Part shown: piece after piece, positions 5,204 to 56,726 of the stretch | Layout: each line of letters begins with the position of its first letter | Numbering within the stretch: the stretch's first letter is position 1 | Assembly (NCBI GenBank): GCA_016937695.1 | Contig: JAFGWC010000017.1 | Span: forward strand, 1-60,898 | DNA: 60,898 bases | Reading direction: 5' to 3' | Source: Bacteroidales bacterium | GTDB taxonomy: Bacteria; Bacteroidota; Bacteroidia; Bacteroidales; NBLH01 | Made by a program: the position numbers and the translations under genes | Notes under the pieces: generated by a model | What the model was told of the DNA's origin: nothing | Database searches by the model: none | What the model saw: only the letters and a program-made list of their open reading frames with translations

Positions 5204-6631
5204 TTGAGACGTACAAACAGAAAAAGATTACCAAGATACGAGAATGTTGAAATTATAGATTTAGCAGCAGAAGGAAAAGCTATTGCAAAACTAAAAATTG
5301 GCGACGATGAAAGAGAAATAATAGTATTTGTAAAAGATTGTATTCCTGGCGATATTGTTGATATTCAGGTTGATAGAAAGAAAAAAAGCTTTATGGAAGC
5401 TTATCCTGTAAAGTTTCATAAACTTTCGGATGTGCGAATAGATGCTAAATGTTCGCATTTTGGCGTTTGTGGCGGCTGCAAATGGCAAAGCCTTCCTTAT
5501 CAAAAACAAATAGAATATAAACACAAACAAGTTGTTGATCAATTAACGCATATTGGCGGAATTGAGCTACCGGAAGCCGAAAAAATTCTTGAATCTAATG
5601 AAGAATTTTATTACAGAAATAAACTTGAATACACTTTTTCGAACAAAAGATGGCTTACTAAAGAAGAAATTTCTGATGAAACTCCAAAACAAATGGATGC
5701 TTTAGGTTTTCACATTCCTAAAATGTTTGATAAAATTGTTGATATAGAAACATGCTATTTACAAAATGACTCGTCAAACGATATAAGACTTGAAATAAGG
5801 AAATATGCTATTGAAAATAAATTAGAGTTTTTTGATTTAAAAAACAACAAAGGATTTCTTAGAAATTTAATTATAAGAAGCTCAACCACAGGCGATTTAA
5901 TGGTTATTTTATCTTTACATTACGATGATATAAATTTAAGAAAAGCATTATTAAATCATATAAAGGAAAAGTTTCCTGAAATTACTTCTTTAATGTATGC
6001 TATAAATCCAAAAAGAAATGATACAATAACTGATTTACCTGTAAAATTACATCACGGAAACGACCATATTTATGAAAAAATGGAAGATTTAAAATTCAAA
6101 ATTGGTCCTAAATCTTTTTATCAAACAAATTCAAAACAAGCATATCGTTTATATACATTAGTTAGAGAATATGCTGATTTAAAAGGCGATGAAATTGTTT
6201 ATGATTTATACACAGGAACAGGAACAATTGCAAATTTTGTGGCTAAAAATGCAAAGCAAGTTATTGGTATTGAGTACGTTCCGGAAGCTATTGAAGATGC
6301 AAAAGTTAATTCTGAAATTAACGAAATTGAAAACACAACTTTTTATGCAGGCGATATGAAAGATGTGATGACAAAAGATTTTATTAAAGAAAACGGTAAA
6401 CCTGATGTAATAATTCTTGATCCGCCAAGAGCAGGAATGCATAAAGATGTGGTTGATGCAATTTTGTTTGCAGAACCTGAAAAAATAGTATATGTTAGTT
6501 GTAATGCTGCCACGCAAGCACGTGATATTAAATTACTTGATGAAAAATATAAAGTTGTAAAATACAGACCTGTTGACATGTTTCCGCAAACAGCACATGT
6601 TGAAAATATAGCTTTATTGCATAAAAAATAA
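5204..6631 (+). CDS. rlmD: 23S rRNA (uracil-5-)-methyltransferase RlmD (RumA/TrmA family)
   Basis: The 475-aa protein has an N-terminal TRAM RNA-binding domain (about residues 10-70), a [4Fe-4S] cluster motif CSHFGVCGGC (Cys83, 89, 92, plus the Cys of IETCYLQ), a SAM-binding fold (YDLYTGTGTIANFVA) and the m5U catalytic site DPPRAG followed by YVSCNAAT, whose Cys is the nucleophile. These features place it with RlmD/RlmCD, which methylates U1939 and sometimes U747 of 23S rRNA. The start is TTG; the reading frame has no ATG before the TRAM domain. It is followed by a strong terminator. Confidence 0.93.
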   Translation: MRRTNRKRLPRYENVEIIDLAAEGKAIAKLKIGDDEREIIVFVKDCIPGDIVDIQVDRKKKSFMEAYPVKFHKLSDVRIDAKCSHFGVCGGCKWQSLPYQKQIEYKHKQVVDQLTHIGGIELPEAEKILESNEEFYYRNKLEYTFSNKRWLTKEEISDETPKQMDALGFHIPKMFDKIVDIETCYLQNDSSNDIRLEIRKYAIENKLEFFDLKNNKGFLRNLIIRSSTTGDLMVILSLHYDDINLRKALLNHIKEKFPEITSLMYAINPKRNDTITDLPVKLHHGNDHIYEKMEDLKFKIGPKSFYQTNSKQAYRLYTLVREYADLKGDEIVYDLYTGTGTIANFVAKNAKQVIGIEYVPEAIEDAKVNSEINEIENTTFYAGDMKDVMTKDFIKENGKPDVIILDPPRAGMHKDVVDAILFAEPEKIVYVSCNAATQARDIKLLDEKYKVVKYRPVDMFPQTAHVENIALLHKK

Positions 6632-6647
6632 ATGCTTTATTTATAAA

Positions 6648-6684
6648 AAAAACCTTCGATGAAATAAATCAATCGAAGGTTTTT
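6648..6684 (+). terminator. Rho-independent terminator after rlmD
   Basis: A 13-bp stem (6648-6660 with 6672-6684; core ACCTTCGAT / ATCGAAGGT) with an 11-nt loop is flanked by A and T runs. It can act in both directions. Confidence 0.85.
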
Positions 6685-6783
6685 ATTTATTTTTTAATCT
6701 TTAATAATTATTTAGATTAATAAACCAAAAAAGCATCAATTCTTAAAAAAAAGAAAACTCATTTTGGTAAAAACAATCTATAA

Positions 6784-7029
6784 TTATTTTTTTACTGCTT
6801 TTGCTTCTTCAACGGCAATTGAATCAGCTTTTAATTGATCAGCAGCTGCATTAATTGAATCTGTTTTAGCTTTTTCGATTGCAGCTAAAGAATCAACTTG
6901 AACTTGCATGATAGAATCTTGTCTTAAAGAATCTAACTTTGCTTGCTCAGCTTGTTCGTCAACACTAGGAGTACAGGCAACGAATACAAACATTCCGGCA
7001 AAAGCCAGAGATAATAATAATTTTTTCAT
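6784..7029 (-). CDS. Small lipoprotein with Asp-Ser repeats
   Basis: The 81-aa protein has a signal peptide ending in a lipobox (VFVAC, Cys19). The remaining 60 residues are charged and Ala-rich with recurring DSL/DSI words about 10-13 residues apart (LDSLRQDSI, VDSLAAIEKAKTDSI, KADSIAVEEA). This suggests a single amphipathic helix or coiled coil standing on the outer or inner membrane. No family with known function is recognised. It faces rlmD across the terminator and may be a structural envelope lipoprotein. Confidence 0.75.
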   Translation of the reverse strand: MKKLLLSLAFAGMFVFVACTPSVDEQAEQAKLDSLRQDSIMQVQVDSLAAIEKAKTDSINAAADQLKADSIAVEEAKAVKK

Positions 7030-7316
7030 TTTGTTTCATATTTTTAGAACGCAGCAAAATTATAATAAAATATTCATTTTAAACTAAATTGTTCTAAATA
7101 TTTTTTCAATAATCACAAACTGCTTATTATCAACAACATATAAAATTAATTTTATATGAAAACTTAGTTTAAATTTCATTAATTAAGCTAAATTTTCAAA
7201 TTACACACTTTAATACTGTGAATTTTAACTTTTACTTAATATAGTTTTTTCATTTTGGGTTTTTACTTATTTCTTAATCTTAAAAACTTGCAGCTATTAA
7301 AAAAGACACAAATTTT

Positions 7317-9074
7317 TTAAAGTTCAATTTTTTCTTCAATTCTATAAACTGGATATCTCATAAATGATTTTTCGAAATATTTTGAGCGTCTGTAAATGAA
7401 AAGTAGCTGCCAATAATGATTTTCAGCCAAATTTTTATCGTTTAGCTTTGCTTTTTCCAATTCTTCTTTTATATCTGGATGCTCTTCCAATATTTTTTCA
7501 GCAGTTTCTTCAAAAACATATGCCGAAAACCATTCTTTTTGTTGCAAAACGGCATCAAAAAAGTTCCACACAAAATATGAATCTGTGGCATCAGGTTCAA
7601 GTGTATTTATTATGTAATTATTTTCTTTTTGATTTGTTTCTACAATATAATCGCCTTTATAAAATTCGATTAACTGCTTGTCTGTATGAGTTTTAACTTC
7701 GTAATGCAAATAATGATTTTCGTATGCTTCTTTTGTTTTAAAATCGTCAATGATAAATGCAGAAACCATTATCGAAGTGTCTTTTTTTAGTGTTTTTAGT
7801 TTTACATTATTTAATTTTAATCTATCAATTGCATTTTGCCAAGCTTGAGAAATAATGTAATATTCAGGTTTTTTTATTGTTTTTTCGGGTTTGTAATGTT
7901 TATAGAAAGCAATATTTTTTTCAAAAGGCTCTGTTTTGTCATAATAAAGCCTTTGAAATCCGGTAATGTTACTTTTTTTATATTTTGCTGCAAAACCTTT
8001 AAAAAGCAAACTGTCAATTTGGGTTTTATCGAGTTTCCAATTTATTGTAAATTCATGTTTTTTTGATGTTTGTTCATCTGCATCTTTCTTTAAATCAGCA
8101 ATTTGCTTATTGTTTTTATTTAAAAACTCATTTATAGCCAAAATAAAATAATATGTTGATAAAACTCTGTCTTTATAAGGTTTTAGCATATGAGTTTCGG
8201 TAATAAAACTTATTGTATTAAACAAACTTGTATATCCTGAAGCATATCTTGGCGAATCGAAAAAACCCACAATTCCGCTATCGGGAATTTCATTTACAGG
8301 ATTAACATATGGAGTCATTTCGTATTTGTAATCAATCATTTTTGAATACAGAAAAGGTAAAATGTTATTATCGACATAACTAGCCAATGGTTTGTGAAAT
8401 TTATCTGTATTAGTTGAAATAAGTGTTATAACATACTGATAATCTGCTCCATTTGAAGTGTGTGTATCAACAAAAACATCTGGTTGCCAAATGTGAAAAA
8501 TTTTGGCAAAAGTTTTTGAATTTTCGGCATCGCTTTTAATAAAATCGCGATTAAGATCAAGATTTTTTGCATTTCCTCTAAATCCGTGCTGCTCCGGTCC
8601 AATTTGATTCATACGACTGTATGGTCCTCTGTTTATGCAGCCGCCAACATTGTAAACCGGAATTATGCAAATAACCGTATTCGAAAGATATTTTTTTTGA
8701 TTTAAATTACCAGAAAGCAAATCTTCTGAAAATTTTATGCTTGCATCAATTCCGCATGATTCACCAGGATGTATTCCATTATTAATCAGCAATATACGCT
8801 TATTGTCTTTTTTTATTTGTTCAGGATTAAATTCCTTGTCATCAGAAATTATAAACAAATGAATTGGTTTTCCTGCATCGGAAATTCCTGCTTCAATAAG
8901 TTTTGCGTTTTCGTATTTTTTATCAAGATTTTTATATTCTTGAATTATTTGCTCGTATGTAAGAGTTTTATTTTGGTTAAAAAGCTCATTGTTTTGAGCA
9001 ATACTTATGTTAATTGTTTTTATCAGCAAAAAAATTATAAGTATACTTTTAAAAATAATTGATTTTATTTTCAT
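7317..9074 (-). CDS. Secreted M14-family zinc carboxypeptidase
   Basis: The 585-aa protein has a signal peptide (residues 1-26, ending NISIAQ). The M14 zinc site is present: HPGE at His102-Glu105 (NNGIHPGESCG) and the third ligand in VDTHTSNGAD. RMNQIGPEQHGFRGNAKNLDLNRDF-like words around residues 160-180 fit the substrate-binding Asn-Arg pair, and the catalytic Glu is plausibly that of FITETHML. A C-terminal extension of about 250 residues is typical of Bacteroidota M14 proteins. It likely trims peptides in the periplasm or outside. It is monocistronic, with 287 bp of AT-rich DNA beyond its 3' end. Confidence 0.88.
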   Translation of the reverse strand: MKIKSIIFKSILIIFLLIKTINISIAQNNELFNQNKTLTYEQIIQEYKNLDKKYENAKLIEAGISDAGKPIHLFIISDDKEFNPEQIKKDNKRILLINNGIHPGESCGIDASIKFSEDLLSGNLNQKKYLSNTVICIIPVYNVGGCINRGPYSRMNQIGPEQHGFRGNAKNLDLNRDFIKSDAENSKTFAKIFHIWQPDVFVDTHTSNGADYQYVITLISTNTDKFHKPLASYVDNNILPFLYSKMIDYKYEMTPYVNPVNEIPDSGIVGFFDSPRYASGYTSLFNTISFITETHMLKPYKDRVLSTYYFILAINEFLNKNNKQIADLKKDADEQTSKKHEFTINWKLDKTQIDSLLFKGFAAKYKKSNITGFQRLYYDKTEPFEKNIAFYKHYKPEKTIKKPEYYIISQAWQNAIDRLKLNNVKLKTLKKDTSIMVSAFIIDDFKTKEAYENHYLHYEVKTHTDKQLIEFYKGDYIVETNQKENNYIINTLEPDATDSYFVWNFFDAVLQQKEWFSAYVFEETAEKILEEHPDIKEELEKAKLNDKNLAENHYWQLLFIYRRSKYFEKSFMRYPVYRIEEKIEL

Positions 9075-41218: not shown

Positions 41219-43672
41219 ATGAACAAGCTTAAATTTATAAATATTATTATTGCTCTGCTTTTTGCAACAAATTTATTTTCAAGCACTTACAATAGCAATC
41301 TTAAATCTGGATATGAAAATAGAATAATTATTTCCAAATTATATTTGCAATTATCTAACTTGAAAAATAAAGATTATTACGAAAAAATATTTACAAAAGA
41401 CGAAAGAAAACAACTTGCAAAATCAGATAAATATCTAAATTCTGCAAAAAAATATATGGAACAATACGAATCTTATCAAAGTGAAATAGATAAGTATTAT
41501 ACAATTGCAGAAGCTACAAGCAGCGAAAAGAGTAAAGATAAAGCCTTAAAAAAAGCAAAAAAACTTGAGATAAAAGCTTTAAAAAAAGGTGAAAAAGCTT
41601 TATCATATTACCAAAAAGCAAATTCTATCAGAAGTAAAATATACTCTACTGCAATTAATAGAATTAGATTAACAGATGATTCTGAAAGCGCAAAATTAGG
41701 CAGAAAAATTGAACTTAGAGCAAAATCGCTTTTTGATGAGGCTATTTCAATTGAAAAAACAGCGCCAATTCATGATAAAAAATTAAAATTTAATGCTTAT
41801 AATGAAGCTAATAACAAAAAACTACAATCTTTTTCTTTACAAGAAGACGCTTTTGGATTTTATGCAAAAGATAAAAAATTCGACCCAAAAGAATATTCAA
41901 ACGACGATTTTGAAATAGATACAGATGATGTTGTAAAAACAGACTCTTCACTTTTCCCTGTTTATGTTGAACAATACAATCCGTTAGTAGATAACAACTT
42001 ATATAAGTCAAAAGCGAATATAATATTGCCAAAACTTAATTTAAGTAATGAAGAATTAAACTTAATTGTTGAAGCAAATCGTAAAAATCAGTTTGCAAAT
42101 GAATTATTACATCAAGTAGATGAAGCATATATTGTAATAGATTCATTGAATATTGTTGCAGAAATGGTTAAAGACGAAACAGAAAAAGACAGAATAAAAC
42201 AAAATGCTGTTTCTAAAGAACAAAATGCTTTTTATAAACTTTTAAAAGCAACAAATACTTATCTCGAAGTAAATAAATTGAGATATGAAATTTACAAAAA
42301 GCATATTGCTGAAGTAAAATCAAATAGAATTGATGAAAACAATAAAAAAGCTATTTTTTATGAACAAGAAGCAGATAACTACTATTCAAAAGCAAATAAT
42401 GAAATTATAAAAGCAAATAAAATGATGTATAAATCTGATCAATATATAAGTCTTATGGGCGCAAATGATCTACAATTATACTCATTACAGCTAATAGAAA
42501 GCTCTTATGGTTTATATATGAATATGCCAAATATAATTTCAGAAAATGTAGATACTTTATATATATCTGATAATACAATAAATACAAATACAACAGGAAC
42601 AGAAAAAGAAAAAGTTTCAACTAAATTAAGCTGGGAAGTTCTATCAACATACTCATATACAAAAGAAAAACCAAAACCTGTTAAATATCAATCAAAAAAA
42701 GGTGTTGTTTTTAATGTTCAACTCGGAATATTTAAAGGCTATCTCCCACCTCACCGATTTAATACTGTTGATCCAGTGATTTTTGATAAATTTGTTAAAA
42801 ATCCTTATAGAAGATATATGGTTGGCGAATATTTCACATTCGAAGCAGCAGAATTAGCATTACAAAAAGTAAAAATTATTGGATATTCTGATGCATTTAT
42901 TGTTGCTAAGCATGATGGAATAAGAAAAAATTATGCTTCTGCCAAATCTCTACTTATTTTAGATAATAATTACAACTACATGAGAGATAAGGAACTAGCT
43001 AAACTAAATGGCATTAACTCATCTACAAACAATAATTTATCTGTAAATTCAAATAGAAGCGGAAATGTTGTTGGTCAAGAAATAAAAAACACAAATGGAT
43101 TAGTTTATTTAGTTCAATTAGGAATGTTTAAAAATCCTATCAGTTATGAACAAATACTATTTCTAGAACCGGTTTATACTGAAATAATTCCAAATCAAGG
43201 CACAAAATATATGATAGGAACTTTTGCAAGCCTTTCTGAAGCTAGAAATCAAAATAATAAAATAAAACAAAAAGGGATTAAAGATTCTTATGTAATTGCT
43301 TATTATAATGGTAATCATATAAAACTTGACGATGCAAAAAAGTTTGAGAAACAACCAAATACTTATACACAAAATCAAACAACATATACAAAAGAGCCTG
43401 TCAATTTCAAAATTCAAGTTGGTGCATATAGCAATCAATTAAGTAGCAATGACGAACAAAAATTAAAAGCTAAATTTTTAGCCTGGGATATTGATAAACA
43501 ATTAACAAATGGAATGAACATTTATACAATTGGAAATTATAAAACGTATAATGAAGCAAACCAACTTAAGAAAAAAATAATGATTGAAGGACATAAAGAT
43601 ATTTTTATTGTAGCTTTTAAAGGAAATCAAAAAATATCAATTAGTGAAGCAATAAAAATAAGCGGAAAATAA
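41219..43672 (+). CDS. Secreted protein with three C-terminal SPOR-like repeats
   Basis: The 817-aa protein has a signal peptide (1-22) and a Lys/Glu/Ala-rich, helical N-terminal half with repeated stretches (KSDKYLNSAKKYMEQYES, KANSIRSKI, KANNEIIKANKMMYK). It ends in three copies of a roughly 75-residue SPOR-like domain (starting near 498, 628 and 728). Each opens with VVFNVQLGIFKG, LVYLVQLGMFKN or VNFKIQVGAYSN and closes with a YMVGEYFTFEAAELAL-type strand-helix and DAFIVAKHDG-type end. SPOR domains bind denuded peptidoglycan at division sites. The long helical half is not a family I recognise. Confidence 0.75.
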   Translation: MNKLKFINIIIALLFATNLFSSTYNSNLKSGYENRIIISKLYLQLSNLKNKDYYEKIFTKDERKQLAKSDKYLNSAKKYMEQYESYQSEIDKYYTIAEATSSEKSKDKALKKAKKLEIKALKKGEKALSYYQKANSIRSKIYSTAINRIRLTDDSESAKLGRKIELRAKSLFDEAISIEKTAPIHDKKLKFNAYNEANNKKLQSFSLQEDAFGFYAKDKKFDPKEYSNDDFEIDTDDVVKTDSSLFPVYVEQYNPLVDNNLYKSKANIILPKLNLSNEELNLIVEANRKNQFANELLHQVDEAYIVIDSLNIVAEMVKDETEKDRIKQNAVSKEQNAFYKLLKATNTYLEVNKLRYEIYKKHIAEVKSNRIDENNKKAIFYEQEADNYYSKANNEIIKANKMMYKSDQYISLMGANDLQLYSLQLIESSYGLYMNMPNIISENVDTLYISDNTINTNTTGTEKEKVSTKLSWEVLSTYSYTKEKPKPVKYQSKKGVVFNVQLGIFKGYLPPHRFNTVDPVIFDKFVKNPYRRYMVGEYFTFEAAELALQKVKIIGYSDAFIVAKHDGIRKNYASAKSLLILDNNYNYMRDKELAKLNGINSSTNNNLSVNSNRSGNVVGQEIKNTNGLVYLVQLGMFKNPISYEQILFLEPVYTEIIPNQGTKYMIGTFASLSEARNQNNKIKQKGIKDSYVIAYYNGNHIKLDDAKKFEKQPNTYTQNQTTYTKEPVNFKIQVGAYSNQLSSNDEQKLKAKFLAWDIDKQLTNGMNIYTIGNYKTYNEANQLKKKIMIEGHKDIFIVAFKGNQKISISEAIKISGK

Positions 43673-43693
43673 AAAATTAATTGTAAATTGTAG

Positions 43694-43729
43694 ATTACAA
43701 ATTATTAATCAAAATTAGTAATTTGTAAT
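43694..43729. repeat. 16-bp hairpin from recurrent intergenic words
   Basis: ATTACAAATTATTAAT (43694-43709) pairs with ATTAGTAATTTGTAAT (43714-43729), loop CAAA, one wobble pair. It has no T run, so it is not a plain terminator. The same words recur in the spacers near 3.25, 44.05 and 45.7 kb. Confidence 0.55.
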
Positions 43730-43748
43730 TCATCATTAATTAAATTTT

Positions 43749-44033
43749 ATGTTTAAAAATAAAAAAAAGGAAAATCCCGAAGAAAATAATTCTTTAAGCA
43801 CTATAAACGGTAATAATCAATCACTTATATTGTACAATGATGATTATCACACTTTTGATTTCGTTATTGAAACACTAATTAATATATGCAGACATAATGA
43901 TATTCAAGCAGAACAATGTGCATATATTGTTCACTATAAAGGAAAGTGTGATGTTAAAAATGGTGACTATGATTTATTAAAACCAATAAAAGAAGCCTTA
44001 ACAGACAGAGGATTAAAAGCTAATATTGAATAA
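43749..44033 (+). CDS. clpS: ATP-dependent Clp protease adaptor ClpS
   Basis: The 94-aa protein has a flexible N-terminal tail and then the ClpS core: LILYNDDYHTFDFVIETL (the N-D-D region that binds N-degron amino groups), CAYIVHYKGKCDVKNGDY with the conserved His, and the last strand DRGLKANIE. It hands N-end-rule substrates to ClpA/ClpC. It sits between the SPOR-like gene and the NfeD/FloA cluster, with hairpin- or repeat-bearing spacers on both sides, so it is probably its own unit. Confidence 0.93.
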   Translation: MFKNKKKENPEENNSLSTINGNNQSLILYNDDYHTFDFVIETLINICRHNDIQAEQCAYIVHYKGKCDVKNGDYDLLKPIKEALTDRGLKANIE

Positions 44034-44219: not shown

Positions 44220-44687
44220 ATGGCATTAAGCGGAATCATTATATTAATAGTTCTTGGAATCATCTTAATTCTTTTAGAATTTTTTGTAGTACCTGGAATT
44301 ACAATTGCCGGAATTGGCGGTGTGTTATTATTGGTAGCAGGTGTTTGGGTTGCATATGCAAATTATGGAATTACTACAGGAAATTATGTATTGCTTTCAA
44401 CAATAATAGCATTAATAATTATACTAATAATTGCTTTTAACTCTAAAACATGGGAAAAAATATCATTAAAAGCACAAATAAACAGCAAAGTAAAATCAGA
44501 TGATAATTTTAGTGTGAAAATTGGTGACAAAGGAAAAACAATTTCAAAAATGTCACCAATGGGAACAGTTATCATTAACGATAAATTATATGAAGCGGAA
44601 TCAAAAGGTATTTTTATTGATGAAAATACTGAAATAGAAGTAATTAAAATAATCAGAAATAAATTAATTGTTAAACTAGATAAATAA
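44220..44687 (+). CDS. NfeD-family membrane protein (short form)
   Basis: The 155-aa protein has two or three membrane helices (about 3-22, 27-45, 54-72) and a C-terminal OB-fold domain (about 97-152: GDKGKTISKMSPMGTVIIND, then KLYEAESKGIFIDENTEIEV). Short NfeD proteins are encoded beside flotillin-like FloA and modulate it in the membrane. The ORF ends 6 bp before floA, so the two are co-translated. It opens the four-gene NfeD/FloA cluster. Confidence 0.92.
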   Translation: MALSGIIILIVLGIILILLEFFVVPGITIAGIGGVLLLVAGVWVAYANYGITTGNYVLLSTIIALIIILIIAFNSKTWEKISLKAQINSKVKSDDNFSVKIGDKGKTISKMSPMGTVIINDKLYEAESKGIFIDENTEIEVIKIIRNKLIVKLDK

Positions 44688-44693
44688 ATAAAC

Positions 44694-45683
44694 ATGGGAG
44701 TATTAGGATTTTATATCGTGTGGGCAATAATAATTATCATCGCTTTGATGGTACTTTTATATTTTGTTCCGATTGGACTTTGGTTTCAATCACAAATAAC
44801 AGGCGTACCAATATCATTATTACAACTAATATTTATGCGTTGGAGAAAAGTTCCACCATCAATAATTGTTAATACTTTAATAATATCGAAAAAGGCCGGT
44901 TTAGATTTAAAAAGAGATGATTTAGAAGCCCATTATCTTGCAGGTGGAAATGTAATTGCCGTAGTAAAAGCCTTAGTTTCAGCTGAAAAAGCTAATCTTG
45001 GATTAACATTTAAAGTTGCAACAGCAATCGATTTAGCAGGCAGAGACATATTAGAAGCTGTTCACATGTCTGTTACACCAAAAGTAATAGATACTCCAGC
45101 TGTTTCAGCAGTTGCTAAAGATGGAATTCAATTAATTGCAAGAGCCAGAGTTACGGTTAGAGCTTCAATCGAAAATCTTGTTGGTGGTGCAGGCGAAGAA
45201 ACTGTTTTAGCTCGTGTTGGAGAAGGTATTGTTTCTTCAATTGGTTCTTCACTATCACACAAACAAGTATTGGAAAACCCCGATTCAATTTCTAAAGTTG
45301 TTCTTTCAAGAGGTTTAGATTCAGGAACTGCATTTGAAATACTATCAATTGATATTGCTGATGTTGATGTAGGAAAAAATATTGGTGCTGTTTTACAAGA
45401 AAATCAGGCAGAAGCCGATTTAAAAGTTGCAGAAGCAAAAGCAGAAGAAAGAAGAGCAATGGCCGTTGCTTTAGAACAAGAAATGAAAGCACTTGCTCAA
45501 CAAAAAAGAGCAATGGTAATTGAAGCTGAAGCCGAAATACCAAAAGCTATGTCGCAAGCATTTAGAGAAGGCAATTTAGGAATTATGGATTACTATAATA
45601 TGAAAAATATTATGGCTGATACATCAATGAGAGATTCTATTGCTAATCCGACAACCGCAGCTACTATTAAAAAGAAAAAATAG
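44694..45683 (+). CDS. floA: Flotillin-like protein FloA (canonical)
   Basis: The 329-aa protein has a membrane helix at residues 5-27, the amphipathic [20 protein letters not shown] segment, two copies of a 32-residue helical unit (59-90 and 91-122), an SPFH domain (about 125-240: [20 protein letters not shown] to [18 protein letters not shown]) and a Glu/Ala-rich coiled coil (about 240-290). It ends with the family words [17 protein letters not shown] and ADTSMRDSI. FloA organises functional membrane microdomains. It lies 6 bp after nfeD and is followed by two enlarged relatives. Confidence 0.96.
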
Positions 45684-45709
45684 TTGCTTAAAAATACTAG
45701 ATTGCTAGA

Positions 45710-45755
45710 TTGTTAAATTGCTTAATTGCAATGAAACAATTTAGCAATTTAACAA
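45710..45755 (+). repeat. Near-perfect 19-bp hairpin between floA and its enlarged paralogue
   Basis: TTGTTAAATTGCT (45710-45722) pairs exactly with AGCAATTTAACAA (45743-45755). After one T-T mismatch the stem goes on with AATTG/CAATT, leaving an 8-nt loop (45729-45736). It lies 26 nt after the floA stop and 29 nt before the next start. It has no T run, so processing or attenuation is more likely than plain termination. Confidence 0.65.
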
Positions 45756-45784
45756 TGAAATTATTTATAAATAAATTTATCAAC

Positions 45785-48094
45785 ATGTCGTTTCAATTCA
45801 TTTTAGTGCTTTTAGGCATACTATTGCCTATAATTTTGCTTACAATATTAATTGCAAAATCGATTGGTATTTGGCATTTAGTTAGAGCCTCGCATGTTAG
45901 AATGTCTTTTTTGGGATTTCTATACAATTATATTGAAATGATTATCAGACAGATACCAGCTGATTTGATATTTAAATTACTAGTAAATGCAACAAAAGGT
46001 GGAGCCATAATATCTATTAATGTACTAAAAGATTTTTTCAAACTTATCGATAGAACTGTTACTCATTCTATTTATTCCTTTAATAAAAATTTACACGATG
46101 GTGAATTGCTATTAACAAGAATAAGCAGCTATTATATAATGAGTGGAAATGTTGAAGATTTATTATATCTAATTTTAGATTCTATAAAAGCTGAAAAAGA
46201 AATATTCGTTAAAATTAACAGCAAAATAGTTGCTGATATCGAAAAGTTGAAATTTATCAATAATCTGTTAAAAGCCTATAGATTAAGTCTAAACAAAGCT
46301 CACCAAGATTTAATAAACATAGAAAGTAAAGATGAAGAAATAATAAAAAAAGCAGAAGATAAATTTAATTCTTTGCTTTATTTATATGCATCAGATATTT
46401 TATCAGCTTTTAAAGAAAAAAGAATCTTCATGTCAAAAGCAGAAAACTTAAAACTTCTGAAACATGAGATTTTTGAAAACGCAGCAAAAGCGCTAATTAA
46501 AGCACATCAGTCAGGATTAAAAATAAGCCTTGATGAATTGGAAGTATATTTTGGAATGAATGGCGATGTAGAAAAAACTGTTGATATATTACTTAAAACC
46601 AGATACTTAGGATTTAATATCAGCTTAGACGATTTAGAAAAATTTAATGTCGCAGGTGGTGATATTGAAAATACATTAATAAATTTAATAAATGCAAAAA
46701 AAGCCGGACTAAAGATAGAATTAGAAGATTTAGAAAAATATCATCTATTAGGCGGGAATATTGAACAAGTAGTAAAATCACTAATAAAAGCGCATCAAGA
46801 AGGAATGCAAATTTCCATTGTTGATTTAAGTGAATATCTTTCTCAGGGTGGCGATGTTGAAGTTTTAGTAAATGCATTAATAAAATTAAAACAAGAAAAT
46901 ATTGATATAAAAATTAACGAATTAAGTGAATATAATGCCTCTGGCGGAAATGTTCATCAAGTTGTTTTAGATATTATAAAAGCTCACCAGTCTGGCATCA
47001 AATTAAGCATGTTACAATTAAAATCATTTAGAGCGCAAGGTGGTGATGTTGAAAAATTAATAAATGTGCTCTTAAAATCTCATAATAATGAACTTGATTT
47101 AAATATTACTGATTTAGAAAAGCTTGCAAGAATTGGCGCTGATATTGAGAATGCTTTTAGTGCTTTTAAACTAGCTAAAAGGTCAAATATTGGCATCGAA
47201 AAAGAAGAATTACTTGAACTACAAAATGCAGGCGGCGACATACTTACGTATGTAAAAGCAATTTCTATTTCAAAAAGATTGAAAATTGAAATTCAAAAAG
47301 AACAGCTAGAAGCTGATGTTGTAGAAGGAAGAGATGTTTTAAAAGTAATTTTTGCAATCATTTATGCAAGAAAAGAAGGAATAGTTTTAAGCTATAATAA
47401 AGCCATCAGATTTGATAAGGAAAATCATGACGTGGCTGAAGTAGTACAATGGGCAATAAACCCACAAGTAATTAATATTCAGCCTATTACAATAATATCG
47501 CAAGATGCAGTAACTCTTAAATTAAATGTAAACGTAACAGTAAAAGGAATAATTGACCAATATTTAAGAGGCTCAAGAAATGAAGTCTTAAATGACAGAA
47601 TTAACGAAGCAGCTGTAAAAGAAGTAAGTAGACTTAAATCATATCAAGAAGTTCTTGAATCATTAAATGCTATTGCTGAAAGAATATTAAACAGGCTTTC
47701 AGGAAAAATTGAATCTGATGAATTTCCTGAAATGGATGCAGATGAAATAAATGAAATTAATAAAAAAGAAATAAAATTAAATTCCGGAAGCGCCTACGAG
47801 ATTATAGACGTTAATATCCCAAATATTGAAATAGGAAAAGATGCATATTCTGAAATTAGAAAAGAAAAAGCAGAAATAGAAAAAATAGTAGCTAAAACAG
47901 AATCCGATAGAAGAAGAGCAACTGCAATAGCACAAGAACTAGAGGCTAAAGCTAAATTAATTGAATCAGAAGCCGAACTTCAAAAAGGAATGGCACATGC
48001 TTTTAAAAATGGAAATATGAATACAAAAGAATATTATAAAAGGAAAATATTCGAAGACAAACATCACGAAAATGACTTAGGCGAACATCAATAA
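45785..48094 (+). CDS. FloA-family protein with ten tandem 32-residue repeats and a coiled-coil insertion
   Basis: The roughly 769-aa protein (ATG 45785 chosen; upstream ATGs lie inside the hairpin) has a membrane helix (about 4-26), a segment aligning with the FloA start of the helical region (RQIPADLIFKLLVNATKGG), and a charged, helical, probably coiled-coil part (about 130-232). Then come ten repeats of exactly 32 residues (234-553), each like xxALIKAHQxGLxIxxxDLE followed by xY-xxGGDVEKV. An SPFH domain follows (about 557-700, from NPQVINIQPITII to YEIIDVNIPNIEIGKDA), then an EAELQKGMAHAFKNGNMNTK tail matching FloA. Canonical FloA has only two units. The SPFH part has a roughly 30-residue acidic insertion (SDEFPEMDADEINEI). 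Confidence 0.85.
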   Translation: MSFQFILVLLGILLPIILLTILIAKSIGIWHLVRASHVRMSFLGFLYNYIEMIIRQIPADLIFKLLVNATKGGAIISINVLKDFFKLIDRTVTHSIYSFNKNLHDGELLLTRISSYYIMSGNVEDLLYLILDSIKAEKEIFVKINSKIVADIEKLKFINNLLKAYRLSLNKAHQDLINIESKDEEIIKKAEDKFNSLLYLYASDILSAFKEKRIFMSKAENLKLLKHEIFENAAKALIKAHQSGLKISLDELEVYFGMNGDVEKTVDILLKTRYLGFNISLDDLEKFNVAGGDIENTLINLINAKKAGLKIELEDLEKYHLLGGNIEQVVKSLIKAHQEGMQISIVDLSEYLSQGGDVEVLVNALIKLKQENIDIKINELSEYNASGGNVHQVVLDIIKAHQSGIKLSMLQLKSFRAQGGDVEKLINVLLKSHNNELDLNITDLEKLARIGADIENAFSAFKLAKRSNIGIEKEELLELQNAGGDILTYVKAISISKRLKIEIQKEQLEADVVEGRDVLKVIFAIIYARKEGIVLSYNKAIRFDKENHDVAEVVQWAINPQVINIQPITIISQDAVTLKLNVNVTVKGIIDQYLRGSRNEVLNDRINEAAVKEVSRLKSYQEVLESLNAIAERILNRLSGKIESDEFPEMDADEINEINKKEIKLNSGSAYEIIDVNIPNIEIGKDAYSEIRKEKAEIEKIVAKTESDRRRATAIAQELEAKAKLIESEAELQKGMAHAFKNGNMNTKEYYKRKIFEDKHHENDLGEHQ
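46484..47443 (+). repeat. Coding array: ten tandem 96-bp (32-residue) units
   Basis: Ten protein repeats follow each other without any gap or register change. Conserved positions: small/hydrophobic pairs in the first helix (LIKAHQ, LINAKK, IIKAHQ), Gly at position 11, DLE/ELS at 18-20 and GGD(V/I)E at 26-30. The last three units are more diverged (NAGGDILTY, VEGRDVLKV, ENHDVAEV). DNA identity between units is low, so the array is old. Confidence 0.8.
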
Positions 48095-48249
48095 AAAGTA
48101 ATTTATATTAAACTTTTTTTACTGTTTTTATATAATTTGTTTAACTTTATTGTAAATTTTATTGTTTTTTCAAATAATAATTATAATTTTGTAAAGTATT
48201 ATTTATATAAGTTAAAAATAATTTAATTACTTTTCTTAACTTTTGCCAA

Positions 48250-49650
48250 ATGAAGCTAAAATATATTTTAATTATCTTAAGTGTTTTAGCAATAATGCTA
48301 ACATACTCATGCAAATCCGATAAAAATAACAATCAAGAATATCAAACAGATGGTATAGAAGAAATTAACTTTGAAGAAGACGATGTTACTTCAGAACCTA
48401 ACGGTATGGGAACAGGTATGCTTATATTATTAATTGTTTCAGCAATTGTTTTAGGACCGGGTTTAATATTATTTTTCTATTATTTTGTTCCAATAGGCTT
48501 ATGGTACGAAGCCTGGTTATCTGGTGTAAAAGTATCATGGCTAACATTAATTGTAATGCGATGGCAGCGAGTCCCGCAAGATTTAATTTTAAAAACACTT
48601 ATAAAATCTGAAAATGCAGGCCTTCATATCGGAGCCAGAGATTTATCAGATCATTATTTGGCAGAAGTAGATATTGAAAAAGTTGTAAATACATTAATCA
48701 GAGCAACTAATGCCGGTTTAGAAATTCCATTAAATGATTTAGCCTCACAATATCTTGCAAAAGTAGATGTTGAAAAAGTTATTCATGCTCAAATCACAGC
48801 AAAAAATGCGGATTTAGAAATTCCATTAAAAACTTTAGCTTCACACTACTTGGCACAAGTAGATGTTGAAACAGTAGTAGATGCTTTAATTACAGCACAT
48901 AACTCTGGTTACGACGAAATGACACTTAATGATTTAAAAGAACATTTTTTGTCAAATGGAGATGTTAAAAAAGTTGTAAATGCTTTTATATCAGCTAGAA
49001 AAGCAGAACTTCCTAATTTTACTTTTAAAGATATTGCAGCTATTGATTTAGCAGGAATTGATGTTGTAAAAGCAATTGAAGCATCAATTACACCAAGAGT
49101 TGTTGAAACTGATGGTGTAACAGGAATTGCAAAAAATGGCGTTCAACTTACAATGAAGCTAAAAATAACATTAAGAGCACACATAAAAACGATAATTGGA
49201 GGTGCCAGCGAAGAAACGGTACTAGCAAGAGTTAATGAAAGTTTAGCCTCTGAAATTGGTTCGTCCGAAACACATCATCATATACTTAAAAGCCCTTATG
49301 AGTTAGCAGACAGAGTTGAGCAAAAGAATCTTGGTTTTGGAACGGCTTTTGAAATTTTATCAATTGATGTATCAGATATTCAGGTTGGTAGGGATATTGG
49401 TGCTGAACTTGCAATAGAAAGAGCAAAAGCAAATGCAGAAATGGCAAAAGCAGATGTGATAAGAGCTGATGAAAAAGTGCGTAAAGCAATGGCAGCAGCA
49501 TTTACTGATGGGAATTTAAGCATTCATGATTTCCATAATATAATGAATACTGAAGCTGATACAAAAATGAGAGATTCTATTGGTAATTCTGCGATGAAAA
49601 ATAAATCTAAACAAAAAAATGAAGATGATGAAAATGAAAATCATGATTAA
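48250..49650 (+). CDS. FloA-family protein with lipoprotein-like signal and five 32-residue repeats
   Basis: The 466-aa protein starts with a signal-like helix ending in TYSC (Cys21), a possible lipobox. An acidic stretch (30-50), a second helix (about 57-80), the FloA segment FVPIGLWYEAWLSGVKVSWL and five helical units (114-145, 146-177, 178-209, 210-242, 243-275) follow. SPFH (about 280-385) and the end TEADTKMRDSIGNS match FloA closely, more so than the 769-aa paralogue. If Cys21 is lipidated, the N-terminus would be periplasmic and tethered, a topology unlike ordinary FloA. It lies 155 bp after the ten-repeat gene on the same strand. Confidence 0.88.
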   Translation: MKLKYILIILSVLAIMLTYSCKSDKNNNQEYQTDGIEEINFEEDDVTSEPNGMGTGMLILLIVSAIVLGPGLILFFYYFVPIGLWYEAWLSGVKVSWLTLIVMRWQRVPQDLILKTLIKSENAGLHIGARDLSDHYLAEVDIEKVVNTLIRATNAGLEIPLNDLASQYLAKVDVEKVIHAQITAKNADLEIPLKTLASHYLAQVDVETVVDALITAHNSGYDEMTLNDLKEHFLSNGDVKKVVNAFISARKAELPNFTFKDIAAIDLAGIDVVKAIEASITPRVVETDGVTGIAKNGVQLTMKLKITLRAHIKTIIGGASEETVLARVNESLASEIGSSETHHHILKSPYELADRVEQKNLGFGTAFEILSIDVSDIQVGRDIGAELAIERAKANAEMAKADVIRADEKVRKAMAAAFTDGNLSIHDFHNIMNTEADTKMRDSIGNSAMKNKSKQKNEDDENENHD

Positions 49651-53415: not shown

Positions 53416-54198
53416 ATGAAATATAAATTACACAAAAGAGGAAATCTTTTGATAATAAGCAGTCTTTTATTTTTGCTTCTATACTTAAGCTCATGCGTTA
53501 CTCAAAATAAAGTTAAATATGTACAAACTAAAGTTAACGATACACTAAATACATTTATTTTAAAACAACGCCCATTAAATAAAATTCAACCATTTGATAA
53601 TTTATACATCAAAATAATCAGTCCTGATATTGTAACTTCAGCCATGTTTAATAGTGAATCGATGAACGTGCAAACTGTAAACTACAATATGATAAGCTAT
53701 TCTGTAAATGAAGAAGGAAAAATCATATTTCCGTTTGTAGGCGAAATAAGTGTAAAAGATTTAACAATAACTCAAGCAAAAGATTCAATTCAATTAGCAT
53801 TAAATAGATATATCAGTAATTCTGATGTAGTTGTAAAATTTGTTGGAAAAGATATCACAATTATAGGAGAAGTAATGAGGCAAGGTCAATATGTAATATA
53901 TTCTGATAATGTTAACATTTTCAGAGCATTAGCAATGTCTGGTGGCCTTACTGATTTTGGTAATAGAAAAAATGTTACTATTATACGTGAGTTTAATGGT
54001 GAAGCAAAATTTTATTATATAGATTTAACAGATAAAAAAATAATGTTATCCAATTTTTATTATTTAAAACCAGATGACATAATAATCGTTCAGCCATTAA
54101 AACAAAAAACTTTTGGGTTTGCATCAGTTCCATATACTTTACTGCTTACAAGTATTACAACAATTCTTGCGTTTATGACATTTTTGCGAACCATGTAA
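53416..54198 (+). CDS. Polysaccharide export lipoprotein (Wza/OPX family)
   Basis: The 260-aa protein has a lipobox at LSSC (Cys27), a polysaccharide export (PES) domain (about 57-140, LNKIQPFDNLYIKIISPD and GKIIFPFVGEISVKDLTI), an SLBB domain (about 145-215, TIIGEVMRQGQYVIYSDNVN) and a C-terminal membrane helix (about 238-256). This is the Bacteroidota short OPX form, with the helix probably forming the outer membrane pore. It lies 50 bp before the wzc-like kinase gene. No glycosyltransferase or flippase gene adjoins. Confidence 0.9.
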   Translation: MKYKLHKRGNLLIISSLLFLLLYLSSCVTQNKVKYVQTKVNDTLNTFILKQRPLNKIQPFDNLYIKIISPDIVTSAMFNSESMNVQTVNYNMISYSVNEEGKIIFPFVGEISVKDLTITQAKDSIQLALNRYISNSDVVVKFVGKDITIIGEVMRQGQYVIYSDNVNIFRALAMSGGLTDFGNRKNVTIIREFNGEAKFYYIDLTDKKIMLSNFYYLKPDDIIIVQPLKQKTFGFASVPYTLLLTSITTILAFMTFLRTM

Positions 54199-54248
54199 AA
54201 AGTAGTACTTATTTTTTATTAAAAATTGTATTCTAAAAAAACAAAAAA

Positions 54249-56726
54249 GTGAAAACAATAAAACATTCGGAACAAGAATCAAATATGGATTATTATAAAT
54301 CCTTATTGAAGAAAACAATAAAAAAATGGCACTTTTTTGCGATAAGTATAAGTTTAGCAATGATTTTTGGTTATTTTATATATAGATCATCAGCACCATC
54401 TTTTAAAAATAGCATAATGATGCTTATGGCAGACCAAAACTCTAGACAAAGAGAAAATGCAGGTGAGTTTATACAAATAGGAATGTTTGATACACAAAGT
54501 AATATTGAAGACGAATTAGGAATCTTAAATTCATTCCCTGTTGTCAATAAAACTTTAAAAGAATTAAATTTAACAAGCTCATATTATCTGAGCGAAGGTC
54601 TTTACATAAAAGAAATTTATAAAAGCTCGCCATTTATAGTTTTAGTTGATTTAAATTTTGTTCAACCTGTAGATTTAATGTTTGAAGTAAAAATAATTTC
54701 AAACGATAAATTTGTATTAAAAGCTAAATCAGAAGAAGAAGTACCATTGTATAGTTATAGCAAAAATGAAAGAGTTGGATCAATTTATAGACTTAACTTT
54801 TCTAAAGAATTTTCATTTGGAGAAGATATTGAATTTAAAAATATAAAATTTAAAGTTTTATTAAATGGTAATTTTGAAAGTGGAACTTTTGATGATAAAA
54901 ATTTATACTTTAAATTTAATGATATTGAACAACTTACATATCAATATCAAAGCGCTCTTACAATTAGTAGAGTTTCAAATCAATCATCAATTGTTAATTT
55001 AGAAATTAAAGGTGGAAATTCATTACTTGTTACTGATTTTTTAAATAAATTGGCAGAAGTATATTTAACAAAAAACCTTGAAAAGAAAAACAGAATTGCA
55101 ACAAAAACAATTGAGTTTATAGACAATCAAATCTCAGAAGTCGCTGATTCTCTTGACTTTACAGCAAGTCAATTACAAGATTTCAGAACTACACATAAAG
55201 TGATGGATATTGGTTTTTTATCACAAAATGTTTACGAACAAATGATTGTATTAGAAAATCAGCGAGCCGGTTTAATGGTTGAATCAAAGTATTATGACTA
55301 TATAAAAGAATATTTTGAAAATAATAAGAATTTAACAGATTTGCTAGCTCCTTCATCAATGGGAGTTGATGATCCACAACTGGTTTCACTTATTAATCAA
55401 TTAACAGAGCTAAATGCAGAACGTTCTTTGATATTAGACAATAAAAGCATGTTAAACCCAAATTTACCTAATGTAAATGCTAAAATTAACAATCTAAAAA
55501 AAACAATATTAGAAAATATAGACTATATAGTAAGAACTTCTATTATAACAATTAATGATATTGATAATAGAATTGGGATATTAAATCAGCAGATTAACAG
55601 ATTACCTTCTACTGAAAAAGAATTAATAAATATTGAGAGAAAATTTCATTTAAATGATGCTATTTATACTTTTTTATTACAAAAACGTTCTGAAGCAGAA
55701 ATAGCACGAGCATCTAATTCACCTGATTACGAAATTATTGATCCGGCAAGATTGAGCAGTTCACAACAAGTGGCACCTAAGAAAAAAATGATATATTTCA
55801 GTTCATTTTTCCTTGGTTTAATTGCACCAATCGGCTTAATATTAATTTTATCAACTTTTAATGATGCACTAACAGAAGGACGAGATATTGAAAATGCATC
55901 CATTTTCCCACTTATTGGAACTATTGCCAAAAATGATAAAAAAAGTATGATTCCGACTATTGAAAATCCTACTTCATTAATTTCAGAATCTTTCAGGTCT
56001 ACAAGAACAAGTTTACAATTTTTTCAAAAAGATAAACCGAAACAAAATATATTAATAACATCATCATTAAGTGGAGATGGAAAAACATTTGTTGCAATTA
56101 ATTTAGCCGTTGTTTTTTCTTTTTATGGTAAAAGAACATTGCTTTTAGAATACGATTTAAGAAATCCAAAACTAACAGAATATCTTAATCTACAATATAA
56201 AAAGGGTCTTTCATCGTATTTAATTAATGATGCTAAACTTGAAGAAATAATTCATAAAACAAGCATTAAAAATCTTGATGTTATTGCAACCGGTTTAATT
56301 CCGCCAAATCCTGTTGAACTAATTGCTTCTGATAATACAAAAAACTTAATTGAAATTTTACAATCGAGATATGATTATATTATAATTGACACGCCACCTA
56401 TTGGAATTGTAACAGACTCTTTCTTACTAATGGATTATTCTGATGTAAATTTGTTTATCGCCAGATTAAATCATACAAATAAGAAGATGTTTTCAGCAAT
56501 GATGAGGGATATTGAACAAAAAGAAATATTAAATTTCGGAATAATTATTAACGATGATGATGAACAAGCGAACTCAGTTTATTACGAAAAAGACGTAAAA
56601 GCTTCTTATATGTTAAAAAAATTCAGAAAATTAAAGGAATTAGTTAAAATAAATGGAATAAATAGCGAACCTTTATTAAACAAATTTTCAAAACTAAAAG
56701 GATTTTTTAAGAATAAAAAGAAATAA
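54249..56726 (+). CDS. Wzc-like polysaccharide co-polymerase / BY-kinase
   Basis: The 825-aa protein has a Wzz domain between two membrane helices (about 25-45 and 510-530), with a long periplasmic coiled coil, and a cytoplasmic BY-kinase domain. This has Walker A SLSGDGKT (about 605-612), a Walker A' LLLEYDLRNPKL (Glu-Tyr-Asp where Asp-Ala-Asp is usual) and Walker B IIIDTPPIG. The C-terminal Tyr cluster is poor: only VYY and SYML are near the end. GTG 54249 is one start; ATG 54285 (MDYYKSLL) is an alternative. It controls chain length and export with the OPX protein. Confidence 0.9.
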   Translation: MKTIKHSEQESNMDYYKSLLKKTIKKWHFFAISISLAMIFGYFIYRSSAPSFKNSIMMLMADQNSRQRENAGEFIQIGMFDTQSNIEDELGILNSFPVVNKTLKELNLTSSYYLSEGLYIKEIYKSSPFIVLVDLNFVQPVDLMFEVKIISNDKFVLKAKSEEEVPLYSYSKNERVGSIYRLNFSKEFSFGEDIEFKNIKFKVLLNGNFESGTFDDKNLYFKFNDIEQLTYQYQSALTISRVSNQSSIVNLEIKGGNSLLVTDFLNKLAEVYLTKNLEKKNRIATKTIEFIDNQISEVADSLDFTASQLQDFRTTHKVMDIGFLSQNVYEQMIVLENQRAGLMVESKYYDYIKEYFENNKNLTDLLAPSSMGVDDPQLVSLINQLTELNAERSLILDNKSMLNPNLPNVNAKINNLKKTILENIDYIVRTSIITINDIDNRIGILNQQINRLPSTEKELINIERKFHLNDAIYTFLLQKRSEAEIARASNSPDYEIIDPARLSSSQQVAPKKKMIYFSSFFLGLIAPIGLILILSTFNDALTEGRDIENASIFPLIGTIAKNDKKSMIPTIENPTSLISESFRSTRTSLQFFQKDKPKQNILITSSLSGDGKTFVAINLAVVFSFYGKRTLLLEYDLRNPKLTEYLNLQYKKGLSSYLINDAKLEEIIHKTSIKNLDVIATGLIPPNPVELIASDNTKNLIEILQSRYDYIIIDTPPIGIVTDSFLLMDYSDVNLFIARLNHTNKKMFSAMMRDIEQKEILNFGIIINDDDEQANSVYYEKDVKASYMLKKFRKLKELVKINGINSEPLLNKFSKLKGFFKNKKK

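Follow-up and report, generated by a model that had tools for sequence, protein, structure and literature searches.

Two enlarged FloA-family genes recur as a pair in uncultured Bacteroidales and may encode an NfeD-independent SPFH membrane scaffold

The window analysed here is a single stretch of 60,898 nucleotides from a Bacteroidales bacterium, and at positions 44220-49650 it carries nfeD, floA and two enlarged floA relatives, which we call 'big' and 'mid', in line on the + strand with all four open reading frames intact. A preliminary description of this DNA had claimed nfeD plus three consecutive FloA-family genes, and both the open reading frames, which lie where it had put them, and the Pfam matches bear this out. 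The genes and the one candidate regulatory site of the locus are as follows.

41219..43672, + strand: SPOR-domain protein, 817 aa (Pfam PF05036, residues 728-795; two more SPOR-like stretches seen by eye only)
43749..44033, + strand: clpS-like N-degron adaptor gene, 94 aa (Pfam ClpS PF02617, E 2.6e-17)
44220..44687, + strand: nfeD, short form, with a membrane domain and a C-terminal partner-binding domain (Pfam PF01957, PF24961)
44694..45683, + strand: canonical floA, 329 aa (PF12127, 518.1 bits; NCBIfam FloA equivalog, 515.6 bits)
45785..48094, + strand: big, FloA relative, 769 aa (PF12127, 214.2 bits; AF2 model, mean pLDDT 82.8)
48162..48191, + strand: weak promoter-like site before mid, with the Bacteroidetes-type pattern TTG-N19-TAnnTTTG
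48250..49650, + strand: mid, FloA relative, 466 aa (PF12127, 348.6 bits; AF2 model, mean pLDDT 81.2)

All three FloA-family proteins of the window exceed the PF12127 gathering cutoff of 34 bits, the match being split into 7 stretches in big and 4 in mid, and the cutoff of the NCBIfam FloA equivalog NF010186 (393 bits) is passed by FloA, with mid (347.8 bits) and big (214.7 bits) below it. We took the ATG at 45785 as the start of big, for which relatives have an ATG at the equivalent position (by eye); a TTG at 45710 would make a protein of 794 aa. The promoter-like site before mid follows the Bacteroidetes consensus TTG-N19-TAnnTTTG, a pattern that matches 10 times per window strand against a mean of 5.1 in one-strand shuffles. 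Mid is full length in 6/6 same-genus genomes, counter to the absence or frame disruption in close relatives that the preliminary description had named as refuting; more widely, no stop lies within the mid match in 23 of 24 mids, the exception (G109) having one TAA.

The three FloA-family proteins share a repeat unit of two helices (32-33 aa), which follows the membrane helix and precedes the SPFH domain and is present in two copies in FloA, five in mid and about ten in big. The parts of the proteins are these.

44862..45056, + strand: FloA, two repeat units, residues 57-121 (repeat profile 49.2 and 38.9 bits, both units in the seed)
46481..47428, + strand: big, residues 233-548, a run of about ten 32-aa repeats of two helices each (model helices; seven units at 36-49 bits, all in the seed)
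47447..47842, + strand: big, SPFH domain, residues 555-686 (VIA-align to mouse stomatin SPFH 4fvg: Z 12.2, rmsd 2.3, 106 aligned)
48250..48312, + strand: mid, lipoprotein-type signal peptide to Cys21 (own rule; Cys21 nearly invariant)
48313..48486, + strand: mid, acidic linker at residues 22-54, followed by a transmembrane helix (residues 55-79, a helix in the AF2 model)
48583..49071, + strand: mid, residues 112-274, a run of five repeats of 32-33 aa (repeat profile 43-51 bits per unit, every one in the seed; DNA tandem repeat; model helices)
49075..49395, + strand: mid, SPFH domain, residues 276-382 (VIA-align to 4fvg: Z 13.8, rmsd 1.9, 104 aligned)
49396..49614, + strand: mid, short coiled coil and FloA-type tail (coiled-coil segment of 28 residues vs 53 in FloA)

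The repeat profile was seeded with 14 units from the window's own proteins, so that its scores there (36-51 bits) are high by construction; it also detects units in relatives outside its seed, and shuffled versions of the same proteins give at most 5.2 bits. Two units were scored in 7/7 FloA proteins, six of them outside the seed, and five units in 24 of 27 mids, with four scored in the remaining three (L107, L108, L111). The spacing of units in 25 aligned mids, judged by eye, is that of five units in 23 and of six in two (G260, G062). The DNA of the mid gene is itself a tandem repeat of period 96, and the AF2 models show twelve solenoid helices in mid and helices with a 32-residue period in big, which fits the ten and five repeats first proposed for big and mid. 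Across the mid loci big varies from 492 to 794 aa, so that its repeat number may vary; that of mid is nearly constant. The difference in the helical part before SPFH that the preliminary description had noted is therefore real, and is refined here to a change in copy number of FloA's own repeat; a repeat unrelated to FloA is ruled out, since this very unit occurs twice in canonical FloA. We know of no explained role for the variable helical subdomain of FloA. Nature supplies a series of arm lengths, built from a single repeat in two, five or about ten copies, of which five is nearly constant in mids, and this makes that role testable by swapping arms. In published work the subdomain is described as variable over the tree (PMC11222466).

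Both mid and big have the SPFH/band-7 fold by the structural alignments given above. In a Foldseek search with big, SPFH chains appear only from E 1.2e-3 onward. A likeness of its solenoid to TALE-like repeats was set aside, as the scores (Foldseek against 4cj9: E 1.8e-3, TM 0.16; VIA-align against 4osh: Z 8.4, rmsd 13.9, 246 aligned) lie within the chance range for repeats, and a search of PDB sequences with the big profile gave no match to the TALE-like two-helix repeat fold. That search returned ten matches at E 0.017-6.3, the sole relative among them being a prohibitin (E 2.8); with the mid profile it returned one designed protein (E 0.95), and with the FloA profile nothing up to E 1.

The ends of mid set it apart from FloA. 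By our own rule, a lipoprotein-type signal, with a lipobox Cys at its end, is present in 25/27 mids, 0/28 FloA and 0/18 big proteins, Cys21 is nearly invariant among mids, and in 25/25 signal-bearing mids the linker is net negative and the 30 residues past the hydrophobic stretch are net positive. The signal had gone unnoticed in the preliminary description. It is a natural indication that mid, and by analogy FloA as well, has an N-out, C-in topology. At the other end, the claim that the FloA-type tail is kept is right in part: the coiled-coil segment has 53 residues in 28/28 FloA and 28 residues, with at most one EA repeat, in 27/27 mids, 25 residues fewer. In 18 big rows this segment has a median of 39 residues (range 0-46; 46 in the window) and 0-4 EA dipeptides. 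The EA repeats are reported to matter for self-interaction of FloA and FloT (PMC4409396).

A tree of 72 proteins places FloA (28), mid (27) and big (17 rows) each on one side of a branch, with SH-aLRT values (quick method) of 89, 100 and 99, respectively; support for the FloA group is thus only 89, and long branches leave the inner order of the big group unsure. The partial mid of L112 was excluded from the repeat, signal, tree and coiled-coil counts, and one big row cut by a contig end (L040) was dropped from the tree and kept in the signal and coiled-coil counts. A recent local duplication of floA was rejected in view of the three separate groups. From their sequences, mid and big appear to be two long-diverged FloA (SPFH5) subfamilies in uncultured Bacteroidales.

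Of 393 genomes sampled from the order, 24 have mid; it was not found outside the order in one 395-genome phylum sample searched at a strict cutoff, for which the listing does not state the share outside the order. Canonical FloA (E 1e-70) was found in 7 of the 24 mid genomes vs 253 of the 369 genomes without mid (Fisher p=0.00018), where presence in the 24 was read off the list of matches, absences refer to draft genomes and to the cutoffs given, and the 24 genomes are not independent (they belong to 10 families, in four of which at least one genome keeps FloA). For mid, the co-occurrence with floA on which the preliminary claim depended is thus seen in seven genomes and fails in the 17 in which FloA went undetected. 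NfeD was matched in 7 of the 24 mid-bearing genomes searched (G004 and all of the above 24 except the genome of the window), the same seven that have FloA, and gave no match at E 0.001 in the 17 mid-bearing genomes without canonical FloA. This restriction suggests that NfeD belongs specifically with canonical FloA and is dispensable for a flotillin-type scaffold.

The unit that recurs is big-mid, often with an SPOR-domain gene upstream, and not nfeD-floA-big-mid. In 15 of 28 mid loci the gene immediately upstream of mid is big, and this arrangement occurs in five families (f1, f17, f56, f58, f104). The pairing is not strict, since the other 13 loci have mid without a neighbouring big: six have neither big nor SPOR upstream, four have SPOR directly upstream, one has SPOR and an unrelated 560-aa gene, and two are truncated at the edge of a contig. 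In one genome (G006) the two genes are on separate contigs, and a search at E 1e-25 found no big in G002 (82% complete) or G005 (90% complete). As for the order of all four genes, whose conservation had been put forward as a check, we found it contiguous in the window and in L087 (whose contig is that of G001); in L096 it is interrupted by another two FloA-like genes, in G003 it probably runs across a contig break, and in G022 nfeD-floA and big-mid are on separate contigs. These orders, together with the scarcity of FloA and NfeD alongside mid, rule out a strictly conserved four-gene operon. A member of the SPOR cluster is present in 15/28 mid loci, the one in L113 matching SPOR below the Pfam cutoff (E 0.01). 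Near ordinary floA genes without mid we counted an SPOR gene in 5 and a clpS-like gene in 10 of 22 loci, which were chosen among the FloA matches; in these counts overlap removal lost the floA of L121 and may have missed nearby genes as well, and divergent neighbours may escape the SPOR and ClpS profiles, which derive from mid-type loci and relatives.

We reason that big and mid may form an NfeD-independent, probably heteromeric SPFH membrane scaffold that stands in for NfeD-FloA in many lineages, a reading to which we give a little less than an even chance. FloA's own two-helix repeat would have been multiplied, from two in FloA to five in nearly all mids and about ten in the window's big. 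Mid would be anchored in the inner membrane by a putatively lipidated periplasmic N-terminus and its predicted transmembrane helix, and the SPFH domains of big and mid would be held in the cytoplasm on alpha-solenoid arms of unequal length. Lacking 25 residues and most EA repeats of the coiled coil on which FloA depends for self-assembly, mid would probably join a partner with a longer coiled coil, either big or, where present, FloA; the coiled coil of big is itself shorter than FloA's, so that big may not compensate for the loss. The big-mid set would replace NfeD-FloA in many lineages, the window's genome keeping both; scaffolding or the holding of clients is a conceivable function, and the SPOR and ClpS neighbours may have a role. 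The points that speak for this reading are the repeat counts, the three-group tree, the recurrent big-mid pairing, the signal pattern, the shortened coiled coil and the lack of FloA and NfeD matches in most genomes with mid.

A preference of Bacillus subtilis FloA and FloT for homo-oligomers, with an uneven spread of the two (PMC4409396), speaks against a big-mid heteromer and for the main alternative, in which FloA, big and mid each form homo-oligomeric microdomains of their own, with a division of labour much like that between FloA and FloT; the loci without a neighbouring big and the weak promoter-like site before mid point the same way. We regard this as quite possible, although it is harder to square with the position of big directly before mid in loci of five families and with the loss in mid of 25 coiled-coil residues and most EA repeats, in a region with a bearing on self-interaction of FloA and FloT (PMC4409396). 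The earlier model, with NfeD, FloA, big and mid in one hetero-oligomeric scaffold, draws on the gene order of the window and its few counterparts and on the binding of FloA by NfeD in Staphylococcus aureus (PMC11222466); it is improbable, as most mid genomes yielded neither canonical FloA nor NfeD and the two gene pairs lie on different contigs in G022, and its obligatory form is unsupported with FloA in only 7/24 mid genomes. That big and mid are neutral, decaying floA duplicates with no function of their own would suit their patchy occurrence, yet it is scarcely credible given the absence of internal stops in 23/24 mids, the nearly fixed repeat number and the fixed coiled-coil length over 27 mids, the near-invariance of Cys21 and the rarity of FloA where mid occurs.

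SPOR domains bind peptidoglycan glycans. Compatible with the favoured big-mid scaffold, and in our view rather unlikely, is a trans-envelope tether, in which the lipidated periplasmic N-terminus of mid and the SPOR protein would link the cytoplasmic scaffold to peptidoglycan, possibly at sites of division or remodelling. The SPOR-cluster genes in mid loci, four of them directly before a mid without neighbouring big, and the conserved signal, acidic linker and transmembrane stretch of mid argue for it, whereas the SPOR genes near ordinary floA mean that the link may be inherited, and the L113 member is a sub-threshold SPOR match. The fullest version combines these elements into an NfeD-free hetero-oligomer with repeat number (five vs about ten) as a ruler, a lipoprotein subunit whose lipidated N-terminus and acidic linker, exposed to the periplasm, meet the SPOR protein on peptidoglycan, a cytoplasmic SPFH scaffold thereby tied to the wall, and NfeD-FloA replaced in several uncultured Bacteroidales lineages; we consider it unlikely as a whole.

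Among known systems the closest is FloA/YqfA (SPFH5) with NfeD, with which big and mid share the membrane helix, helical subdomain, SPFH domain, coiled coil and conserved tail, and of which the window's own FloA, with NfeD in its genome, is a plain member. The two differ from it in having about ten and five repeats instead of two, in falling below the NCBIfam FloA cutoff, in the lipoprotein-type signal and 25-residue shorter coiled-coil segment of mid, and in the absence of an NfeD match from 17 of the 24 mid-bearing genomes searched. In the literature searched we found no description of repeat-extended FloA paralogues such as big and mid, and of tandem duplicates beside NfeD none for FloA, in keeping with the preliminary claim of two undescribed enlarged paralogues with different spacer lengths, which we can now extend to a recurring gene pair. 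Like HflK/HflC, whose two unequal paralogues are encoded together, and like the prohibitin 1/2 and flotillin 1/2 cages, big and mid have the SPFH fold and are unequal paralogues, adjacent in 15 of 28 mid loci; unlike these cages, they have a solenoid arm from membrane to SPFH domain and, in mid, a short coiled coil. Tandem SPFH paralogues beside NfeD have been described (NfeD1a-SPFH1a.1-SPFH1a.2 and cyanobacterial SPFH2 pairs; PMC2636767), so that the type of arrangement seen in the window is not new in itself; those belong to other subfamilies, and the portion of PMC2636767 available to us mentions neither repeat expansion nor a lipoprotein signal in them. B. subtilis likewise has flotillins of two lengths in one cell, FloA and FloT (PMC4409396), the latter of another subfamily, SPFH2 (PMC2636767); there it is the C-terminus of FloT that is longer, whereas here it is the N-terminal repeat part that grows.

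The expected row of nfeD followed by three consecutive FloA-family genes was borne out on the + strand at 44220-49650:

44220-44687, + strand: nfeD, the first of four genes in line
44694-45683, + strand: canonical floA, directly after nfeD
45785-48094, + strand: big, the gene for the 769-aa FloA relative, after floA
48250-49650, + strand: mid, the gene for the 466-aa FloA relative, last of the row

A SPOR-domain gene and clpS lie upstream of nfeD, also on the + strand, and a ferredoxin gene lies downstream of mid. All three proteins matched Pfam FloA far above its cutoff, canonical FloA alone passed the NCBIfam FloA equivalog cutoff, and in the source genome (159 contigs, 99.6% complete) FloA matches at E 0.001 number seven, none of them outside floA, big and mid. 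In a tree built by a quick method from 213 SPFH and tail columns (72 rows, one cut big row dropped), the FloA (28), mid (27) and big (17) rows each fell on one side of a branch (SH-aLRT 89, 100 and 99, respectively), with long branches that leave the inner order of the big part unsure. Because the three groups separate, they look like long-diverged paralogues rather than local copies. Elsewhere in the window, at 53416-56726, a gene for a polysaccharide export protein precedes one for a GNVR-domain/AAA protein of chain-length or tyrosine-kinase type, judged by their domains a capsule or EPS export pair.

The preliminary description held that the enlarged paralogues differ from FloA before the SPFH domain, and this stood as a difference in copy number of FloA's own repeat, a 32-33-aa two-helix unit present twice in canonical FloA between the membrane helix and the SPFH domain. 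A profile seeded with 14 units from the window's FloA, big and mid found two units in 7/7 canonical FloA, five in 24/27 mid proteins, in agreement with the five first proposed (four in the remaining 3), and seven strong units in the window's big; shuffled proteins scored ≤5.2 bits. The ten units proposed for big were recovered in its AF2 model (mean pLDDT 82.8, from 14 sequences), with a 32-residue helix period giving ten units and a half over residues about 230 to 550; the mid model (mean pLDDT 81.2, from 27 sequences) has five and a half. By eye, the aligned sequences of 25 mids show five units in 23 and six in two (from genomes G260 and G062). Other big proteins in mid loci are 492-788 aa, shorter than the window's or similar, and vary widely in scoring units, so a fixed repeat number is demonstrated for mid and FloA, though not for big. 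The helical subdomain of S. aureus FloA is described as having six helices, a number that varies across the tree (PMC11222466). At locus L096 the repeat part of big (5613-7598) matches Pfam Bac_RepA_C barely above cutoff (29.2 vs. 25 bits), perhaps a chance likeness among two-helix repeats.

Mid differs from its relatives at the N-terminus and in its coiled coil. By our own rule, a lipoprotein-type signal peptide opens 25/27 mids vs. 0/28 FloA and 0/18 big; of the two exceptions, the L101 protein probably has its start called too far upstream and the L104 protein probably lacks this stretch of the N-terminus. The 25-mid alignment, which partly overlaps these 27, has the Cys in 21, two of the other four being without the N-terminal part and two having the hydrophobic segment but no Cys. 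In all 25 signal-bearing mids the charge is net negative in the linker before the hydrophobic stretch and net positive over the next 30 residues, the pattern expected of an N-out, C-in topology. All 27 mids have a coiled-coil segment of exactly 28 residues and all 28 FloA one of exactly 53, with 0 or 1 EA dipeptides vs. mostly 3; in big the segment is 46 residues in the window (median 39, range 0 to 46, with 0 to 4 EA dipeptides; 18 rows, one cut by a contig end). A two-hybrid test is reported in which EA repeats mattered for the self-interaction of FloA and FloT (PMC4409396).

We found mid in 24/393 genomes of the order (E 1e-58), at full length in 6/6 same-genus relatives, so that the absence from close relatives that would have counted against the paralogues was not seen for mid; among 395 phylum genomes, a strict cutoff returned none beyond the source genome. 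Big matched in 14/393 (E 1e-25), two of these (G280, G283) through canonical-length FloA alone. All 27 named mid loci are titled metagenome-assembled or uncultured, mostly Bacteroidales or Bacteroidetes (Chlorobi or Chlorobiota in two), several under a genus name (Draconibacterium or Rikenella, for example); among the sources given in the titles are SulCav samples, horse feces, and ruminant stomachs, the rumen among them.

The proposal that NfeD, FloA, big and mid form one set was not supported. Canonical FloA (E 1e-70; 260/393 genomes) occurred in 7/24 genomes with mid vs. 253/369 without (Fisher p 0.00018, the 24 not being independent events because they spread over just 10 families); the predicted co-occurrence with floA appeared in those seven and was not found in the other 17. 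At family level, four retain FloA (f1 in 3/6, f17, f37, f57), and in the other six it was not found. In the NfeD search set (the same 24 with G004 replacing the source genome), NfeD matched in 7/24, the very genomes that have canonical FloA, and in 0/17 of the rest. Since both are seldom found where mid occurs, mid and big seem, from these searches, not to need either.

The 28 mid loci, the window's and 27 named ones, divide as follows by what lies directly upstream of mid: big in 15 (including L090, where a contig edge leaves just the C-terminal end of big), a SPOR-cluster gene (the cluster of the window's 817-aa SPOR-domain gene) in 4, SPOR together with an unrelated 560-aa gene in 1, and neither big nor SPOR in 6; a contig end cuts 2. 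By genome handle, big-mid pairs fall in families f1, f17, f56, f58 and f104. The SPOR-cluster gene is present in 15/28 loci and clpS in 5/28. Because clpS and SPOR also occur near ordinary floA (10 and 5 of 22 loci of the order), SPOR-clpS-nfeD-floA may be the older arrangement; a partnership of SPOR or ClpS with mid or big is possible, though the adjacency may be inherited. Ordinary loci L119, L124, L126 and L131 repeat the window's SPOR gene and clpS (41219-44033) upstream of nfeD-floA, and the literature searched yielded no paper tying the two to nfeD-floA.

Several loci carry further genes. In L096 (2103-9182) nfeD is followed by five successive FloA-family genes, the last two being big and mid; the two extra members between canonical FloA and big are degenerate (377 aa and 406 aa; 22.8 and 65.7 bits to Pfam FloA, the first of them under its cutoff of 34). 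L095 (4387-5685) and L099 (3082-5271) have extra FloA-like genes beside big (Pfam FloA 20 to 40 bits), with nfeD-floA absent from the locus; a 485-aa gene beside big in L042 (3647-5104) matched no Pfam family. FloA also matches a pair of overlapping long frames (717 and 761 aa) in L053 (5991-9570; G041, a genome outside the mid set), and paralogous 582-aa and 587-aa genes follow SPOR-clpS-big in L047 (8773-12274; G006).

The architecture of mid and big and its conservation are observed, and a likely mode of action can be proposed for them. Mid would be lipidated in the periplasmic leaflet and cross the inner membrane once, big would likewise make a single crossing, and the alpha-solenoid arms and SPFH domains of both would be cytoplasmic. 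With too little coiled coil of its own, mid would join big, or FloA, in an assembly that might organise membrane proteins or hold unfolded clients, offering larger client or lipid surfaces. Neither repeat-extended nor lipoprotein-type flotillins turned up in the largely open-access literature searched; tandem SPFH duplicates adjoining NfeD are already recorded for other SPFH subfamilies (PMC2636767). In function, the mid/big assembly would resemble S. aureus FloA-NfeD, for which unfolded-client holding or membrane-protein organising is described (PMC11222466).
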